64,000 nt of DNA from Nonomuraea guangzhouensis (GTDB taxonomy: Bacteria; Actinomycetota; Actinomycetes; Streptosporangiales; Streptosporangiaceae): positions 124,001 through 188,000 of the forward strand of contig NZ_JAHKRM010000008.1 in the NCBI RefSeq assembly GCF_019396345.1. Reading direction: 5' to 3'. The translations under genes and the position numbers were made by a program. This document shows positions 54,458 to 60,209 of the stretch, in pieces. The notes under the pieces are model-generated. The model worked only from the letters and a program-made list of their open reading frames with translations. It ran no database searches and was not told the origin of the DNA. The first letter of the stretch is position 1. Each line of letters opens with the position of its first letter.

Positions 54458-55528
54458 ATGCGGAACAGACTGTACGAACTCGACGGGCTCCGGTTGCTGG
54501 CGGCGCTCTGCGTGGTGTTCTTCCACTACACGTTCTCGGGGTGGGCCGGTGGTCACAGCCCGGTCGTCTTCCAGGCCGAGAGCGTCTGGTCCAAGTACGG
54601 CTACCTGGGTGTGGACCTGTTCTTCATGATCAGCGGATTCGTGGTGCTGATGAGCGCTTGGGGCAGGACCCCGCGCGAGTTCGCGGTGTCGAGGGTGATC
54701 CGGCTCTACCCGGCGTACTGGGTGGGCATCGCCGTCACCACGCTGGTCACCGTAACGCTGGGAGCGGGGGTCTTCTCCGTCTCCTTCGGGCAGGTGCTGG
54801 CCAACCTCACGATGTTCCAGGCGGTGCCGGACGTGGCGAACGTCGACGTCGTCTACTGGACGCTCTGGGCTGAGATGCGGTTCTACCTGCTCATCCTGGT
54901 GTTCGCCTGGATCGGGATGACCCGGGGGAGAGTGCTGGCGGGGCTGTGGGCGTGGCTGGGGCTGACGCTCGCGGTCGAGGCGGGGGTGCTGCCGCCGATG
55001 ATCGACCTGGTGGTGCAGTCGGAGTTCGCGCACTACTTCATCGCGGGGATGGCGCTGTTCATGCTGTACAAGTTCGGGCCCAGCAAGCAGGTGCTGGTGC
55101 TGGTGCCGCTCTGCCTGGGGAACGCCGTCTACCGCGCCATCGGCTACGCGACGGCGGTGGGGGAACGTTATTCGGTCGAGTACAGCCCGGTGGTGATCGC
55201 CCTGGTGGTCATGGCGCTCTTCGCGGTGATGACGCTGGTCGCGCTCCGGGTGACGGCGCCGCTGGCCATGCCGTGGCTGGCGACCGCGGGCGCGCTCACG
55301 TACCCGCTGTATCTGCTGCACGCGCACGTCGGTTTCATCGTGTTCGAGCGGATCGGTGGGGCGGTCGACAAGTACGTTCTGCTCTTCGGGCTCATCGCGG
55401 TGATGTGCGCGGCGGCGTACGCGGTGCACCGTTTCGTCGAACGGCCGCTGGCGCCCGCGCTCAAGCGCGTGATGGCTCCCCGGCGGCAGCCGGCGGTGCT
55501 GGTCAGAGGTTTCGGAATGGCCAGGTAG
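54458..55528 (+). CDS. Acyltransferase-3 family membrane protein
   Basis: A 356-residue integral membrane O-acyltransferase with about ten helices. RLYELDGLRLLAALCVVFFH carries the catalytic-type histidine, and the RVIRLYPAYWVGI motif is diagnostic of the family (OafA, NodX, MdoC). These enzymes add acetyl or other acyl groups to exported glycans, lipids or antibiotics. ATG at 54458 has AAGGGGG nine bases upstream. No polysaccharide genes are adjacent, so the acceptor is unknown. Confidence 0.92.
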   Translation: MRNRLYELDGLRLLAALCVVFFHYTFSGWAGGHSPVVFQAESVWSKYGYLGVDLFFMISGFVVLMSAWGRTPREFAVSRVIRLYPAYWVGIAVTTLVTVTLGAGVFSVSFGQVLANLTMFQAVPDVANVDVVYWTLWAEMRFYLLILVFAWIGMTRGRVLAGLWAWLGLTLAVEAGVLPPMIDLVVQSEFAHYFIAGMALFMLYKFGPSKQVLVLVPLCLGNAVYRAIGYATAVGERYSVEYSPVVIALVVMALFAVMTLVALRVTAPLAMPWLATAGALTYPLYLLHAHVGFIVFERIGGAVDKYVLLFGLIAVMCAAAYAVHRFVERPLAPALKRVMAPRRQPAVLVRGFGMAR

Positions 55529-55563: not shown

Positions 55564-56376
55564 GTGAGTCTCGGGTCCGAGTGGGCGCCTCCCGGCGTGG
55601 ACAGCACCACGGCGAGTGTCGCCCGCGTGCACGACGCGCTCCTGGGCGGCACCGAGAACTTCGCCGTGGACCGGGCCATCGCCCGCCGCCTGAAAGAGGC
55701 CGTGCCCGAAGTGGTCAACCTCGTCTGGTGCAACCGGGCCTTCATCGGCCGGGTCGTCGACTTCCTGGTCCGCGAGGCCGGGATCCGGCAGATCATCGAC
55801 CTGGGCGCCGGGCTGCCGACGATCGAGAACACCCACGAGGTCGCCCAGTTCGCCGACCCCAACGTACGGGTGGTGTACGTCGACTGCGATCCCATGGTCG
55901 AGCCGCACGCCCGGGCGATCCTGAACGGCAACGAGCACGCGCTGGCCATCACCGAGGACGCCAGGGACGCGGAGGCGGTGCTGCGGCATCCGAGGGTGGC
56001 GCGGCTCATCGACTTCTCGCAGCCCGTCGGGCTGATGGCGATCGGGCTGCTGCACCTGTTCTCCGACAAGGAAGACCCGCACGGGCTGGTCAAGCGCTAC
56101 ATGGCCGCGCTGCCGCCCGGGAGTTACCTGGCGGCCTCCAACATGCTGGCCTCGGTCAGCCCGCAGGCGCAGGCGCTGGAGGCCATGCTGCACGTGACGA
56201 TGGGGACGGGGCACTTCCGGCCGCGGGCGGAGATCGAGCGCTTCTTCGACGGGCTGGTGCTGGAGGAGCCCGGGGTGGTGCACTTTCCGGAGTGGCGGCC
56301 TGACGAGCGGTTGCCTGGGCCGTTGGCCACGTGGGAAGCGCTTTTGCTGGGGGGCGTGGCGCGCAAACCGGCCTGA
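55564..56376 (+). CDS. SAM-dependent methyltransferase (DUF574/Methyltransf_19 type)
   Basis: A 270-residue protein of the large actinobacterial Methyltransf_19 family. The N-terminal VARVHDALLGGTENFAVDRA signature, QIIDLGAGLPTIENTHEVAQ as the SAM motif I, and VVYVDCDP as motif II are present. Many paralogues exist per genome, and their substrates are mostly unknown. GTG at 55564 follows AAGGGGG. It lies 35 bp after the acyltransferase gene and may be co-transcribed. Confidence 0.92.
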   Translation: MSLGSEWAPPGVDSTTASVARVHDALLGGTENFAVDRAIARRLKEAVPEVVNLVWCNRAFIGRVVDFLVREAGIRQIIDLGAGLPTIENTHEVAQFADPNVRVVYVDCDPMVEPHARAILNGNEHALAITEDARDAEAVLRHPRVARLIDFSQPVGLMAIGLLHLFSDKEDPHGLVKRYMAALPPGSYLAASNMLASVSPQAQALEAMLHVTMGTGHFRPRAEIERFFDGLVLEEPGVVHFPEWRPDERLPGPLATWEALLLGGVARKPA

Positions 56377-56423
56377 GTTCCTTGTTGCTGGAAACGTGGG
56401 TGAATTGGGTGGTTCGTCGGCGC

Positions 56424-56429
56424 TAGGGT
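56424..56429 (+). promoter_or_regulatory. -10 element of the leader transcript
   Basis: TAGGGT lies seven bases before the GTG of the 13-codon leader ORF, the geometry of a leaderless mRNA. The -35 region is not clear. Confidence 0.5.
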
Positions 56430-56436
56430 GGTCGTC

Positions 56437-56478
56437 GTGCCGCATCGACTGATCTGTTCCCCTCCGCCCGCCAAGTAG
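56437..56478 (+). CDS. Leader peptide of EamA attenuator (13 residues)
   Basis: A short ORF, GTG to TAG, encoding VPHRLICSPPPAK. There is no room for a Shine-Dalgarno, and a -10 (TAGGGT) lies seven bases upstream, so it is probably read leaderless. Its Pro-Pro-Pro codons overlap the 5' arm of a terminator hairpin, and its stop codon TAG falls in the loop and at the edge of the 3' arm. Polyproline is a known cause of ribosome slowing (relieved by EF-P). The gene sits 101 bp upstream of the EamA transporter. No protein function is expected beyond sensing translation. Confidence 0.65.
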   Translation: MPHRLICSPPPAK

Positions 56479-56485
56479 CGGGCGG
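56464..56485 (+). terminator. Attenuator terminator
   Basis: CCGCCCGC (56464-56471), loop CAAGTA, GCGGGCGG (56478-56485), followed by CTTTT and a second T-run (56496-56500). It is the only hairpin I found here with a U-tract. It overlaps the leader ORF end. Confidence 0.8.
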
Positions 56486-56528
56486 CTTTTCCCGATTTTT
56501 CCGGATCTGACCAGGTCTGGGAGTGGCT

Positions 56529-56579
56529 GCTGCCCGCCTACCGGGCCCTTTCCCACCACTCCATCCGGAGAGATCAGTC
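56529..56579 (+). promoter_or_regulatory. Antiterminator strand and RBS-sequestering complement
   Basis: GCTGCCCGC (56529-56537) can pair with the terminator 3' arm GCGGGCGGC (56478-56486) with one G-U. AGATCAGTC (56571-56579), directly before the EamA ATG, is the exact complement of leader bases GACTGATCT (56447-56455). CGGAG (56566-56570), part of the ribosome-binding site, complements CTCCG (56462-56466). These are mutually exclusive pairings of an attenuator. Confidence 0.6.
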
Positions 56580-57860
56580 ATGTCGCACGTCTCCGCGCGG
56601 CGGGGCACCTTCTACGTGTCCGTCGCCGCGACCGCCTGGGGCACCGGCGGTGCCGCCGGGTCCCTGCTCTTCCAGTCGGGCGGGCTCGACCCGGTCGACG
56701 TCTCGTTCTGGCGCTACCTCCTGGGCGCCGCCTTCCTGTACGCCGCCGCCTGCCTGAGGTCGGCACTCACCCGCCCGACGTCACCCGCCGCCCGTCCTGG
56801 GTCGGCCACGGCCGGCCCTGGGTCGGCCATCACCCGCTGGGCGGCGGCAGTTTCCCGCCTGAGGTCGGTTATCACCCGCCTGAGGGCGGTCGCTGCCCCC
56901 ATCACGTCCGCCACCATCCAGTCCACGGCAGCCACTAACGGCCTTACGTCGGACGTCGTCCGGTCGGGTGATGTCGGCGGGTGGGGGCGTCGGCGTTCTC
57001 TGCCGAGTGGCGTCGGCGGGGGGCAGTGTCAGGGTTCTCTGCCGAGTGCTGTGGGCGCGTGGTGGCGTCCGAGTTCTCTGCCGGGCCGGGTTGGCGGAGG
57101 GCGGGGTTCTCTGCCGGGCCGGGTCGGCGGATGGCGAGGTTCCCTGCAGGGTCGGGTCAACCGGCGGGTCCTGGTCGTCGGTGTCGGGATGGCCATCTAT
57201 CAGACCGCCTACTTCGGCGCGATCGCGCAGTCCGGTGTCGCCATCGCCACGGTGGTCACGATGGGTGCCACGCCCGTGTTCACCGCTCTGGGAAGCCGGT
57301 TTCTCCTGCGGGAGCACCTGGGCCGCGCCGCCCTCGCCGCGCTGGCGACGGCGCTGGGCGGTCTGTTCCTTCTCACCGGCGAGAGCGCCATCTCCGCCGG
57401 GGACACCGGGAACGTCGGTGGCGGGCGGCCGGCCGGGATCGCGCTGGCGCTGGTGTCAGCCGCCGGGTACGCCGCCGTGACCCTCTACTCGCGCCGCCAT
57501 CACGACGACCCCCGGCGTACGGCCATGGGCGGGTTCGCCGTCGCGGCCGCCTGCCTCGCTCCGTTCGCCTTGGCCGGCGGGGTGCTGCCGGCAGCCGGGG
57601 TGACCCCGGTCGCACTGCTGCTCTATCTCGGCGCGGTGCCGACCGCACTCGCCTACGCGCTGTTCTTCCGAGCCCTGACCGCGCTCAACGCCACCACGGT
57701 CTCGATCATCTCGCTCGGCGAAGCCGTCGGCGCGGCGGTGCTCGGGGTGGTGGTGTTCGGCGAGCGTCTCGCGCTCCTGGCATGGTGCGGGTGCGCGTTG
57801 TTGCTGGCGGCCGTGGTGGTGCTGGCCGTACAAGCAGGGCGTATGACCGATAAGGATTAG
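56580..57860 (+). CDS. EamA/DMT transporter with repeat-built loop insertion
   Basis: A 426-residue transporter. The first half begins YVSVAATAWGTGGAAGSLLF, and the second half includes SGVAIATVVTMGATPVFTAL and VSIISLGEAVGAAVLGVVVF, both EamA repeats of the RhtA-like metabolite exporter group (usual length about 290-310). Residues 61-193 are an extra Arg/Ser/Gly-rich insertion between the second and third helices, built partly from tandem repeats and predicted to form a soluble loop. ATG at 56580 has GGAGAG. Expression is probably set by the leader attenuator upstream. Substrate unknown. Confidence 0.86.
   Translation: MSHVSARRGTFYVSVAATAWGTGGAAGSLLFQSGGLDPVDVSFWRYLLGAAFLYAAACLRSALTRPTSPAARPGSATAGPGSAITRWAAAVSRLRSVITRLRAVAAPITSATIQSTAATNGLTSDVVRSGDVGGWGRRRSLPSGVGGGQCQGSLPSAVGAWWRPSSLPGRVGGGRGSLPGRVGGWRGSLQGRVNRRVLVVGVGMAIYQTAYFGAIAQSGVAIATVVTMGATPVFTALGSRFLLREHLGRAALAALATALGGLFLLTGESAISAGDTGNVGGGRPAGIALALVSAAGYAAVTLYSRRHHDDPRRTAMGGFAVAAACLAPFALAGGVLPAAGVTPVALLLYLGAVPTALAYALFFRALTALNATTVSIISLGEAVGAAVLGVVVFGERLALLAWCGCALLLAAVVVLAVQAGRMTDKD
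56995..57150. repeat. In-frame tandem repeats in EamA loop
   Basis: The core GTTCTCTGCCG(A/G)G starts at 56995, 57034, 57073 and 57106, with a degenerate copy at 57139. Spacings are 39, 39, 33 and 33 bp, all multiples of three. They encode repeats of the type SLPGRVGG. Confidence 0.85.
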
Positions 57861-57932: not shown

Positions 57933-58007
57933 GTCGCTCCGCTCCCCGATTGAGCACACTTGACACTAAATGGGAACGGCGCTGACAAAGCATGCGTTGG
58001 AGGGATT

Positions 58008-60209
58008 GTGGCGTCGATTTCCGGAATAGTGAGAAACCTCCTGGATCGTCCGGGCGGGGTGAATCTCGGCCCGTACAAAAAGATCGTCAAGGCGGCGGCC
58101 GGACGGGCCGAACGCATCGGTGCGCTCGAGGAGCTGCCCCAGCCGAAAATGGATGATCTGGCCGAGTTCTGTGCGGTAGCGCGGGAGGCCGCCGACAGGA
58201 CGCTCGGGCTCAGGCCGTACGACGTGCAGCTTCTGGGCACGCTCGCCCTCCTCGACGGGCAGATCGCCGAGATGGCGACCGGTGAGGGAAAGACGCTGTC
58301 GGGGGCGATGGCCGCGGCCGGGTACGCGCTGCAGGGCAAGCGGGTGCACGTGATGTCCGTCAACGACTACCTGGCCAGGCGCGACGCCGAGTGGATGGCG
58401 CCGTTCTACGAGGCGATGGGTGTCACGGTGGGCTGGATCGACCAGAACTCCACACCCGACGAGCGGCGCGCGGCCTATGCGAAGGACGTCACGTACGGAC
58501 CCGTCAGCGAGATGGGCTTCGACGTGCTGCGCGACCGGCTGCGTACCGACGCGGCGGAGATCATCGTGCCCGCGCCCGAGGTGGCGCTGGTCGACGAGGC
58601 CGACTCGGTGCTCGTGGACGAGGCACGGGTGCCGCTGGTCATGGCGGGGGCGGCCGACGAGGGCAGCGCCGTGCCCGAGATGGCGGCGCTGGTCAGGCAG
58701 CTGATCCGGGGCTACCACTACGAGATCGACGACCAGGCGCGTAACGTCTACCTGACGACCAAGGGCGCCGACAGCGTCGAGGGCATGCTGGATGTCGAGC
58801 TGTACGACGAGAACGAGCCCGGCACGCTGATCGAGCTGAACCTGGCCCTGCACGCCCACGCCCTGCTCACCCGCGACGTCGACTACATCGTGCGCGACGG
58901 CAAGGTCCAGTTGATCAACCCGTCGCGCGGCCGGGTGGCCGTGCTCCAGCGCTGGCCCGACGGCCTGCAGGCGGCCGTGGAGGCCAAGGAGACGCTGCCG
59001 CCCAGCGAGAAGGGCGAGATCCTCGACTCGATCACCGTCCAGGGCCTGATCAAGCGTTATCCGCAGATTTCCGGTATGACCGGCACGGCGGTGGCGGTCA
59101 GCGAGCAGCTCGGCGAGTTCTACGGCCTCAAGGTCGCGGTGATCCCGCCCAACCGGCCGTGTGTCCGGGAGGACGCGCCGGACCGTATCTATCCGACCGT
59201 TCCGGACAAGGACGCGGCGCTGGTCGAGGAGATCCAGGAGGCGCACGCCACCGGCCGGCCCATCCTCATCGGCACGCTCGACGTGGCCGAGTCGGAGAAC
59301 CTGGCCAAGCTCCTGCAGCGGCGCGGCATGGAGCCCGTCGTACTCAACGCCAAGAACGACGCCGAAGAGGCCGCGATCATCGCCAAGGCCGGCGAGCGCG
59401 ACGCCATCACCGTCTCCACGCAGATGGCGGGCCGCGGCACCGACATCCGCCTCGGCGAGGGCGTCGCCGAACTGGGCGGCCTGTACGTGATCGGCTCGGG
59501 CCGCCACGCGAGCAGCCGCCTCGACGACCAGTTGCGCGGGCGCGCGGGCCGTCAAGGCGATCCCGGCGGTTCGGTGTTCTTCGTCAGCATGAAGGATGAT
59601 CTCATCACCCAGTTCGTCCCCGACGAGCGGCCGCCCGCGGCCGACGCCGACGGCCTGGTACGCCACCGCCGCGGCGCCTACCTCGTGGGCCACGCCCAGC
59701 GGGTCGCCGAGGGCGTGAACCTGGAGATCCACCGCAACACCTGGCGCTACACCCGGCTGCTGGAGCACCAGCGCGAGCTCATCCTGGAGTGGCGCGACAA
59801 GGTCCTGCACAGCGACTCGGCGGCCAAGGCGCTGGCTGAGGCCGACCCCGAACGCTGGGAGGCGCTGCCGGAGGACACCCGCGACGAGACGGCCAGGCAG
59901 ATCGTGCTGCACGCGATCGACCGCTGCTGGACCGAGCACCTGGCGTTCCTGACCGACCTGCGCGAAGGCATCCACCTGCGGGCGCTCGGCCGGATGAGCC
60001 CGATCGACGAGTTCCATCGGGAGGCCGTGGCGGAGTACAAGGCGCTGCTGACGGAGGTCGAACGCCGCTCGATGGAGTCGTTCGAGGCGCCGGAGCCCGA
60101 CCTCAAGCGCCCCACCGCGACCTGGACCTATCTGGTGCAGGACAACCCGTTCGGCACGGAGTGGGACAGGATCCTCAAGCGGGTGACATCCGCCACACGT
60201 CGCGGCTAG
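58008..60209 (+). CDS. secA2: Accessory Sec translocase ATPase SecA2
   Basis: A 733-residue SecA-family protein, shorter than the housekeeping SecA (about 900 or more). Walker A is ATGEGKT at residues 90-96, Walker B VDEADSVLVDEA near 200, then VSTQMAGRGTDIRLGEGVAE and GRAGRQGDPGGS motifs, with scaffold and wing regions reduced. The C-terminal zinc-binding tail of SecA1 is absent. It would export a subset of proteins with the canonical SecYEG. No SecY2 or accessory Sec proteins are adjacent. GTG at 58008 follows GGAGGG. Confidence 0.93.
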   Translation: MASISGIVRNLLDRPGGVNLGPYKKIVKAAAGRAERIGALEELPQPKMDDLAEFCAVAREAADRTLGLRPYDVQLLGTLALLDGQIAEMATGEGKTLSGAMAAAGYALQGKRVHVMSVNDYLARRDAEWMAPFYEAMGVTVGWIDQNSTPDERRAAYAKDVTYGPVSEMGFDVLRDRLRTDAAEIIVPAPEVALVDEADSVLVDEARVPLVMAGAADEGSAVPEMAALVRQLIRGYHYEIDDQARNVYLTTKGADSVEGMLDVELYDENEPGTLIELNLALHAHALLTRDVDYIVRDGKVQLINPSRGRVAVLQRWPDGLQAAVEAKETLPPSEKGEILDSITVQGLIKRYPQISGMTGTAVAVSEQLGEFYGLKVAVIPPNRPCVREDAPDRIYPTVPDKDAALVEEIQEAHATGRPILIGTLDVAESENLAKLLQRRGMEPVVLNAKNDAEEAAIIAKAGERDAITVSTQMAGRGTDIRLGEGVAELGGLYVIGSGRHASSRLDDQLRGRAGRQGDPGGSVFFVSMKDDLITQFVPDERPPAADADGLVRHRRGAYLVGHAQRVAEGVNLEIHRNTWRYTRLLEHQRELILEWRDKVLHSDSAAKALAEADPERWEALPEDTRDETARQIVLHAIDRCWTEHLAFLTDLREGIHLRALGRMSPIDEFHREAVAEYKALLTEVERRSMESFEAPEPDLKRPTATWTYLVQDNPFGTEWDRILKRVTSATRRG

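Follow-up and report, generated by a model that had tools for sequence, protein, structure and literature searches.

Short leader peptides that resemble the one studied here are described from several systems. In actinobacteria, the amino-acid leaders of trp, ilv and leuS, S. lividans included, combine a leaderless short ORF with competing hairpins, some without a U-stretch, as laid out in parts of PMC8079986 and PMC1262725. In those same parts, they are presented as leaders for Trp, Leu, Ile, Ala, Met, Thr and Cys that precede biosynthetic, tRNA-ligase and methionine-import genes. The present locus is similar in plan, but, compared with what those parts describe, its target is an EamA transporter, and there is no run of a single codon that matches a known product. 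The words "proline" and "EamA" have no occurrence in the main texts of PMC1262725 and PMC8079986. The LEU element of actinobacterial leuA shares candidate leader peptides and a conserved fold marking the Shine-Dalgarno box (described in part of PMC1262725), and it differs, in a comparison by description and Rfam scan only, by its leucine leader, its pseudoknot, and its biosynthetic gene. The Rfam scan gave no match at E ≤ 1 to a known RNA family, such as a riboswitch or T-box, between window positions 55000 and 58500.

The erm, msrD and bmrCD attenuators, as outlined in the source excerpts, also have a short leader on which the position of the ribosome picks the hairpin, and their target is possibly an efflux protein. 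In contrast, the locus described here has a Pro-Pro peptide, is actinomycete and probably leaderless, and precedes another pump family. The mgtCBR leaders are reportedly linked to proline. Pro codons or Pro-Pro matter both in these Salmonella leaders and in RAPP-type arrest peptides, according to parts of PMC3641672 and PMC12992588, and in this respect they are like our leader; unlike them, it has no RAPP sequence, it is 10-16 residues long, and its target is neither a Mg transporter nor a protein-localisation gene. By the RAPP definition given in part of PMC12992588, a RAPP/RGPP-like C-terminal motif is absent from the leader peptides compared. A search of the open-access literature, a body that excludes most subscription journals and all of bioRxiv, found no description of this leader.

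The leader ORF and RNA elements of the window

The window, which is the whole stretch of 64,000 nucleotides analysed here, belongs to a 13.7-Mb draft genome (G000) of a Nonomuraea. A leader ORF, an array of potential RNA pairings, and eamA follow each other on the forward strand (Table 1). A first-pass annotation had given coordinates and complementarities for this region, and all of them were confirmed by direct reading of the window.

Table 1. Features of the leader region and of eamA, numbered from the first base of the window.
Feature	Position	Strand	Remarks
-10 hexamer TAGGGT	56424..56429	+	Putative promoter (direct reading), 7 nt 5' of the leader GTG
Leader ORF	56437..56478	+	13 codons, VPHRLICSPPPAK-stop; GTG 56437-56439, TAG 56476-56478
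P1 5' strand GACTGATCT	56447..56455	+	Exact complement of AGATCAGTC 56571-56579
CTCCG	56462..56466	+	Exact complement of CGGAG 56566-56570; alternative P1 extension
A (segment 1) CCGCCCGC	56464..56471	+	Hairpin 5' arm; Pro-Pro-Ala codons; pairs with B
B (segment 2) GCGGGCGG	56478..56485	+	Hairpin 3' arm; begins with the final G of the TAG stop
T-rich stretch after hairpin	56487..56499	+	In the window's clade; unconserved
Hairpin C	56499..56522	+	From the fold; two-sided changes in relatives
Hairpin D	56520..56562	+	Centroid structure; encloses E and E'; 3' arm CCACTCC ends 4 nt before the Shine-Dalgarno
E (segment 3) GCTGCCCGC	56529..56537	+	Rival of A for pairing with B
E' (segment 4) CGGGC	56542..56546	+	Partner of E within hairpin D
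eamA Shine-Dalgarno GGAG	56567..56570	+	In the minimum-energy fold paired with CUCC 56559-56562
P1 3' strand AGATCAGTC	56571..56579	+	Directly 5' of the eamA ATG
eamA	56580..57860	+	EamA/DMT-family transporter, Pfam PF00892, E 1.2e-26, 426 aa

The 159-nt leader is predicted to fold with -67.3 kcal/mol, compared with a mean of -55.2 kcal/mol for shuffled sequences (z -3.0), and 1/200 shuffles was as good. The minimum-energy structure contains the GACUGAUCU:AGAUCAGUC helix and the hairpin, and the local CUCC:GGAG pairing stacks on the leader helix. The A:B hairpin consists of an 8-bp GC stem followed by CTTTTCCCGATTTTT, and the stop codon is situated in its loop. All four segments, A, B, E, and E', are present in the window in a 1:2/2:3/3:4 layout.

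A covariance model derived from 41 Nonomuraea leaders matches a single place in genome G000. A Pro-Pro-Pro-Ala hairpin pattern occurs there at three places, one of which is this leader. Across both strands of the window and of 14 neighbourhoods (467,826 bases in all), a strict leader pattern has 15 matches, every one of them this leader.

Conservation of the leader in three families

The 260 nt 5' of the EamA start were taken from 55 loci, nearly all from the genus of the window; one (L005) had too little flank and was left out. A leader with a C-terminal Pro-Pro motif is present in 54/54 Nonomuraea loci with flank, which comprise 41 distinct sequences and include the window itself (L001 and L002). 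Across the family of Nonomuraea, the covariance model matches 97 of 298 genomes, at one place each and in 16/68 genera, and 201 genomes are without a match. Of the matched genomes, 39 are of Nonomuraea and include much of the training set; the other 58 are from outside the genus. At 57 of the 58 places outside Nonomuraea, an EamA N terminus follows, and at the remaining one (L115) there is EamA-like sequence. The same kind of leader was found in 58/58 loci fetched from these other genera, one of which (L114) failed a stricter start test.

In a second family, probably the Streptomycetaceae, 49 of 81 genomes contain an EamA orthologue at E ≤ 1e-40; the best 30 loci were taken, and further loci of the family were added later. 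The loci of a third family come from four of the five genomes that have an orthologue. In these two families together, the leader is present in 84/84 loci (53 distinct sequences), on the coding strand and at most 700 nt upstream of EamA, with MHSTVLPPPAA, LVLPPPAA endings, and MSSTVLSPPAA as examples. The protein matches also named Micromonospora and Asanoa; among 394 sampled genomes of the class, none outside the three families was evidently related to these at E ≤ 1e-55.

One genome of the second family (G599) contains two EamA paralogues at separate places (L209 and L210), one with the leader MQTFLTPPPPAV and the other with MHSTVLPPPAA. At two loci of one genus (L142 and L143), the leader LIVSPPPAR and the A:B hairpin are kept, and the RNA 3' of B is strongly diverged from the family consensus.

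The leader is a coding sequence with a Pro-Pro motif

The following comparisons were made on 135 sequences: 41 from Nonomuraea, 58 from other genera of its family, 32 from the second family, and four from the third; two loci of the second family (L154 and L158) were left out. Counting codons back from the stop, Ser(-6), Pro(-5), Pro(-4), and Ala(-2) show zero entropy at codon positions 1 and 2 in both sets from the family of Nonomuraea (41 and 58 sequences), with 0.38-1.23 bits at the third positions. Differences in leader length 5' of the motif are multiples of three, so that insertions and deletions keep the frame. The leader is a coding sequence, a short ORF upstream of eamA, and is predicted to be translated.

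A TANNNT hexamer is located 6-8 nt 5' of an in-frame ATG or GTG in 133/135 sequences, and in the remaining two (L119 and L120, from one genus) the spacing is 9 nt. For S. lividans, part of PMC8079986 gives TAnnnT as the -10 motif. Given the position of the hexamer, the mRNA would start at or next to the start codon of the leader, which is thus probably leaderless and translated from its first base. The earlier proposal of a real, probably leaderless ORF is borne out by its conservation and by the position of the hexamer.

The leaders are 10-16 codons long and end in Pro-Pro followed by (x-)Ala/Val-x-stop. Pro(-4) is found in 135/135 sequences, always beside a Pro at -5 or -3, and Ala at -2 in 130/135. 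The motif takes the forms SPPxAx, LPPPAx, and LSPP(A/V)A, preceded by hydrophobic residues at -8/-7 in the family of Nonomuraea and by Val-Leu at -7/-6 in the second family. In 21 of the 58 leaders from other genera of the Nonomuraea family, Ala, Thr, or Val takes the place of the third Pro. Three prolines had been thought necessary, and this did not hold, as the endings SPPAA, SPPTA, SPPVA, and LSPPVA occur. As three consecutive Pro are not required, the aligned peptides suggest that what is read is a Pro-Pro peptide close to the stop and not the number of Pro codons. Counting of proline codons was rejected as a general cue, since the third Pro is not conserved; cysteine sensing was rejected as well, since Cys(-7) occurs in 38/41 Nonomuraea leaders and in 0/58 of the others from the family. 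The orthologue alignment that the first-pass annotation had suggested as a check shows a short leader in all loci examined, but the ending PPPAK is not general and the covariation terms given below are small.

RNA pairings across sequences

The consensus fold of the Nonomuraea sequences contains A:B, hairpins C and D, and a helix between the leader and the Shine-Dalgarno region. In a 49-sequence consensus of the family, part of A:B, part of B:E, hairpin C, and the leader-to-Shine-Dalgarno helix are found, and the outer stem of D is absent. Two-sided changes occur in C and D within Nonomuraea and in C across genera, where one pair is A-U in 14 sequences and G-C in 25. The covariation terms of the two consensus folds are -0.47 and -0.69 kcal/mol.

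The first-pass annotation had also assigned an alternative partner to the 3' arm of the hairpin, and this partner is conserved. An E-like motif (a regular expression, with UGCCCGC as its shortest form) is present in 41/41 Nonomuraea, 48/58 other sequences of the family, 30/32 of the second family, and 4/4 of the third, 123/135 in total. The downstream pairing of B is better than with shuffled sequence, with mean z values of -3.1, -1.6, -1.3, and -0.4 in the same order; for B:E, the statistical support in the third family is weak. There, A:B pairing is on average no better than with a shuffled A, and in two of the four sequences it is worse. Segment A, and to some extent E, is constrained by the Pro and Ala codons.

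Pairing of the leader with its own ribosome-binding region is better than with shuffled regions in all four groups (mean z -1.9, -2.1, -1.4, and -2.1). The leader:Shine-Dalgarno helix recurs at the same leader codons with changed bases, as GUCUCUCC/GGAGAGAC in L135 (Nonomuraea family), GUUCUUCCGC with GCGGGAGAAC in L157 (second family), and GCGCUCUCC with GGAGAGCGC in L205 (third family). Positions 3-6 of P1 differ between families in a compensatory manner, in a register that was picked by best match and therefore favours pairing. Only 59/135 sequences (11/41, 32/58, 12/28, 3/4, and 1/4) have their Shine-Dalgarno window as the best match to the leader segment, compared with 11/135 for a reversed-leader control. 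When leaders and ribosome-binding regions were swapped within groups, 316, 53, and 231 of 5000 permutations matched the native pairing; an earlier swap among Nonomuraea with longer segments gave 5/5000 permutations as good, and both tests leave the relatedness of the sequences in place. P1 is strong in the clade of the window and in some others, weak in many Nonomuraea, and absent in many species. The pairing claimed for the leader and the eamA ribosome-binding site is thus retained in so far as it recurs in other families with changed bases, but it is weak in many members of the genus itself.

In several genera of the Nonomuraea family (loci L088, L097, L102, and L106), a second CTCTCC that is complementary to the eamA Shine-Dalgarno is located 3' of B; an example is the pairing of TCTCTCCAT with ATGGAGAGA in L106. 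From its complementarity, this element could be a second anti-Shine-Dalgarno.

Absence of a general terminator

A terminator scan of positions 56200-56800 found none, with 0.7 expected in shuffled sequences. We read the failure to call the hairpin of the window as due to its tail, which has only four T within the 8-nt tail window. Just 3' of B, some 8-nt stretch contains 4-5 T in 23/41 Nonomuraea and 25/58 other sequences of the family. The maximum per 8-nt stretch just after the hairpin is 0-3 T in 32/32 sequences of the second family and 0 in 4/4 of the third. The U-tail after A:B is therefore a trait of the window's clade that is weaker in the rest of its family and absent from the other two families. 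A conserved intrinsic terminator was rejected on the scan and on the lack of the U-tail in these two families, and because the tail is lineage-specific, intrinsic termination is not the general mechanism. The U-tailed terminator that the first-pass annotation had put forward for the window thus does not extend to the other two families. In the clade of the window, the short U-tail may add some termination at A:B.

Compared with a trp-type attenuator, the short leader ORF is there, the combination of a GC hairpin and a U-tract is partly present in the clade of the window and missing from the second and third families, and the codon run comprises two adjacent Pro in 135/135 sequences, with the third often replaced.

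Modelled accessibility of the Shine-Dalgarno

In 119/135 sequences (34/41, 57/58, 24/32, and 4/4), the Shine-Dalgarno is predicted to be more closed than with shuffled upstream RNA, and the folding models indicate that the ribosome-binding site is closed in free mRNA. Its median unpaired probability changes from 0.08 in free mRNA to 0.16 with the leader covered in Nonomuraea (n = 41) and from 0.01 to 0.18 in the rest of the family (n = 55); for the second and third families, the medians are 0.20 and 0.43 (n = 30) and 0.13 and 0.58 (n = 4). Five of the 135 sequences had no usable E and were dropped from this prediction. With the leader covered, the probability of downstream pairing of B is 0.45-0.66 for a stall at the second Pro and 0.14-0.32 at the third. 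A forced B:E pairing is 3-6 kcal/mol better than B left unpaired.

The unconstrained fold, in contrast, is more stable than the fold with B:E forced in the medians of three of the four groups. Access is higher with B:E forced than with B blocked in only 18/41, 40/55, 18/30, and 3/4 sequences, and with a stall modelled at the third Pro it increases in only 28/41, 33/58, and 19/28. In the window, this stall lowers access from 0.09 to 0.00, and UUUUUCCGGAU pairs with AUCCGGAGAGA. In the model, the site becomes about as open with a ribosome at the stop codon as with a stalled one. By folding, a ribosome on the leader thus opens the ribosome-binding site modestly on average and not at all in the window's own sequence. 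The idea that a slowed ribosome unmasks the eamA start is weakened by these results, since the rise in the medians is not shared by every sequence or by the window, and the stop-codon ribosome does as well as the stalled one. The direction in which eamA is on when the ribosome lingers is favoured by the models, weakly.

eamA and its neighbourhood

The EamA protein of the window has an insert of ~110-120 aa after about residue 60 (window 56770-57150) that is missing from most orthologues and consists partly of 33-39-bp tandem repeats (56973-57158). The orthologues of L003 and L032 align with it over their full length and so have a similar insert. For the L135 orthologue, no solved structure with a similar sequence was found. 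Directly 3' of eamA is a SecA2-type accessory Sec translocase (window 57960-60209; TIGR04221, E 2.1e-300), and a SecA2 cluster is near eamA in 5/14 other neighbourhoods. SecA2 and glyoxalase-like genes recur near eamA in some loci of the Nonomuraea family. In the second family, the neighbours are a MocR-like regulator, a pyridoxamine-oxidase-like gene, a LysR gene, and further EamA genes. In the 15 neighbourhoods, in three of which ORF picking missed eamA, no gene cluster beyond eamA spans the families, and the genomic context gives no clue to the signal.

Discussion

The leader is very likely real and regulatory in some way. As its function we favour, with limited confidence, a ribosome-controlled attenuator of the EamA transporter that would act mainly on translation, with eamA on when the ribosome lingers at Pro-Pro. 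This grading was weighed from the modelled covered-leader access and the gain from B:E pairing, set against the fold-stability, stall, and window results. When no ribosome lingers, A:B and D would form, and the ribosome-binding region would be shut by P1, by the local CUCC:GGAG hairpin, or by both. A ribosome held at Pro-Pro would mask A and the 5' strand of P1; B, once freed, would pair with E, D would open, and the eamA start would become accessible. The ribosome might linger because EF-P activity is low, because charged tRNA-Pro is scarce, or because a small molecule binds the ribosome and causes arrest at the nascent peptide, and the data favour no one of the three.

As a special case of this translational switch, the leader might be a drug or metabolite arrest peptide of the erm/cat/bmr kind, where a molecule exported by EamA arrests the ribosome at LIxSPP or VLPPP. 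The whole peptide is conserved and not just the number of Pro, the sources name the target a DMT/DME drug/metabolite transporter, and 10-16 codons is a size found among known drug leaders. The residues before Pro-Pro, however, vary between families, and neither ligand nor substrate has a candidate, so we regard this special case as doubtful. Classical transcription attenuation, with A:B as intrinsic terminator, B:E as antiterminator, and proline supply (or EF-P) setting the balance, would fit the 1:2/2:3/3:4 layout, which is the classical one, the GC stem and the bases behind it in the window, and the T runs 3' of B in the Nonomuraea family. It is nevertheless unlikely: in the other two families, the leader, B, and the E-like motif persist although the U-tail is absent, the hairpin of the window was not called by the terminator scan, and the third Pro is replaced in a good part of the leaders from other genera of the Nonomuraea family.

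There could also be coupling only, in which ribosomes that finish the leader exclude Rho or re-initiate at eamA, release is slowed by Pro-Pro, and no signal switch is involved. The probably leaderless ORF and the two families without a U-tail agree with it, and re-initiation at bacterial leader peptides has been proposed (in part of PMC4833913). However, about 95-220 nt separate the leader stop from the eamA start, which is far for direct re-initiation, and the conserved partner E and the strict conservation of the peptide would be superfluous, which makes coupling only quite improbable.

Returning to the translational switch, we tentatively suggest, at somewhat less than an even chance, that these loci form an undescribed actinomycete class: a leaderless Pro-Pro arrest peptide of 10-16 residues, fixed to one EamA/DMT exporter in three families, that would monitor Pro-Pro translation (EF-P status or an exported ribosome-binding metabolite) and switch translation of the exporter through a four-segment RNA. 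If it works as proposed, the leader would be a sensor of Pro-Pro translation that is widespread in actinomycetes and simple to test, and through it the substrate and the inducer of this otherwise anonymous exporter could be approached. The layout is that of a classical attenuator, without a terminator in two of the three families, and this bears on the evolution of attenuation in high-GC actinomycetes.
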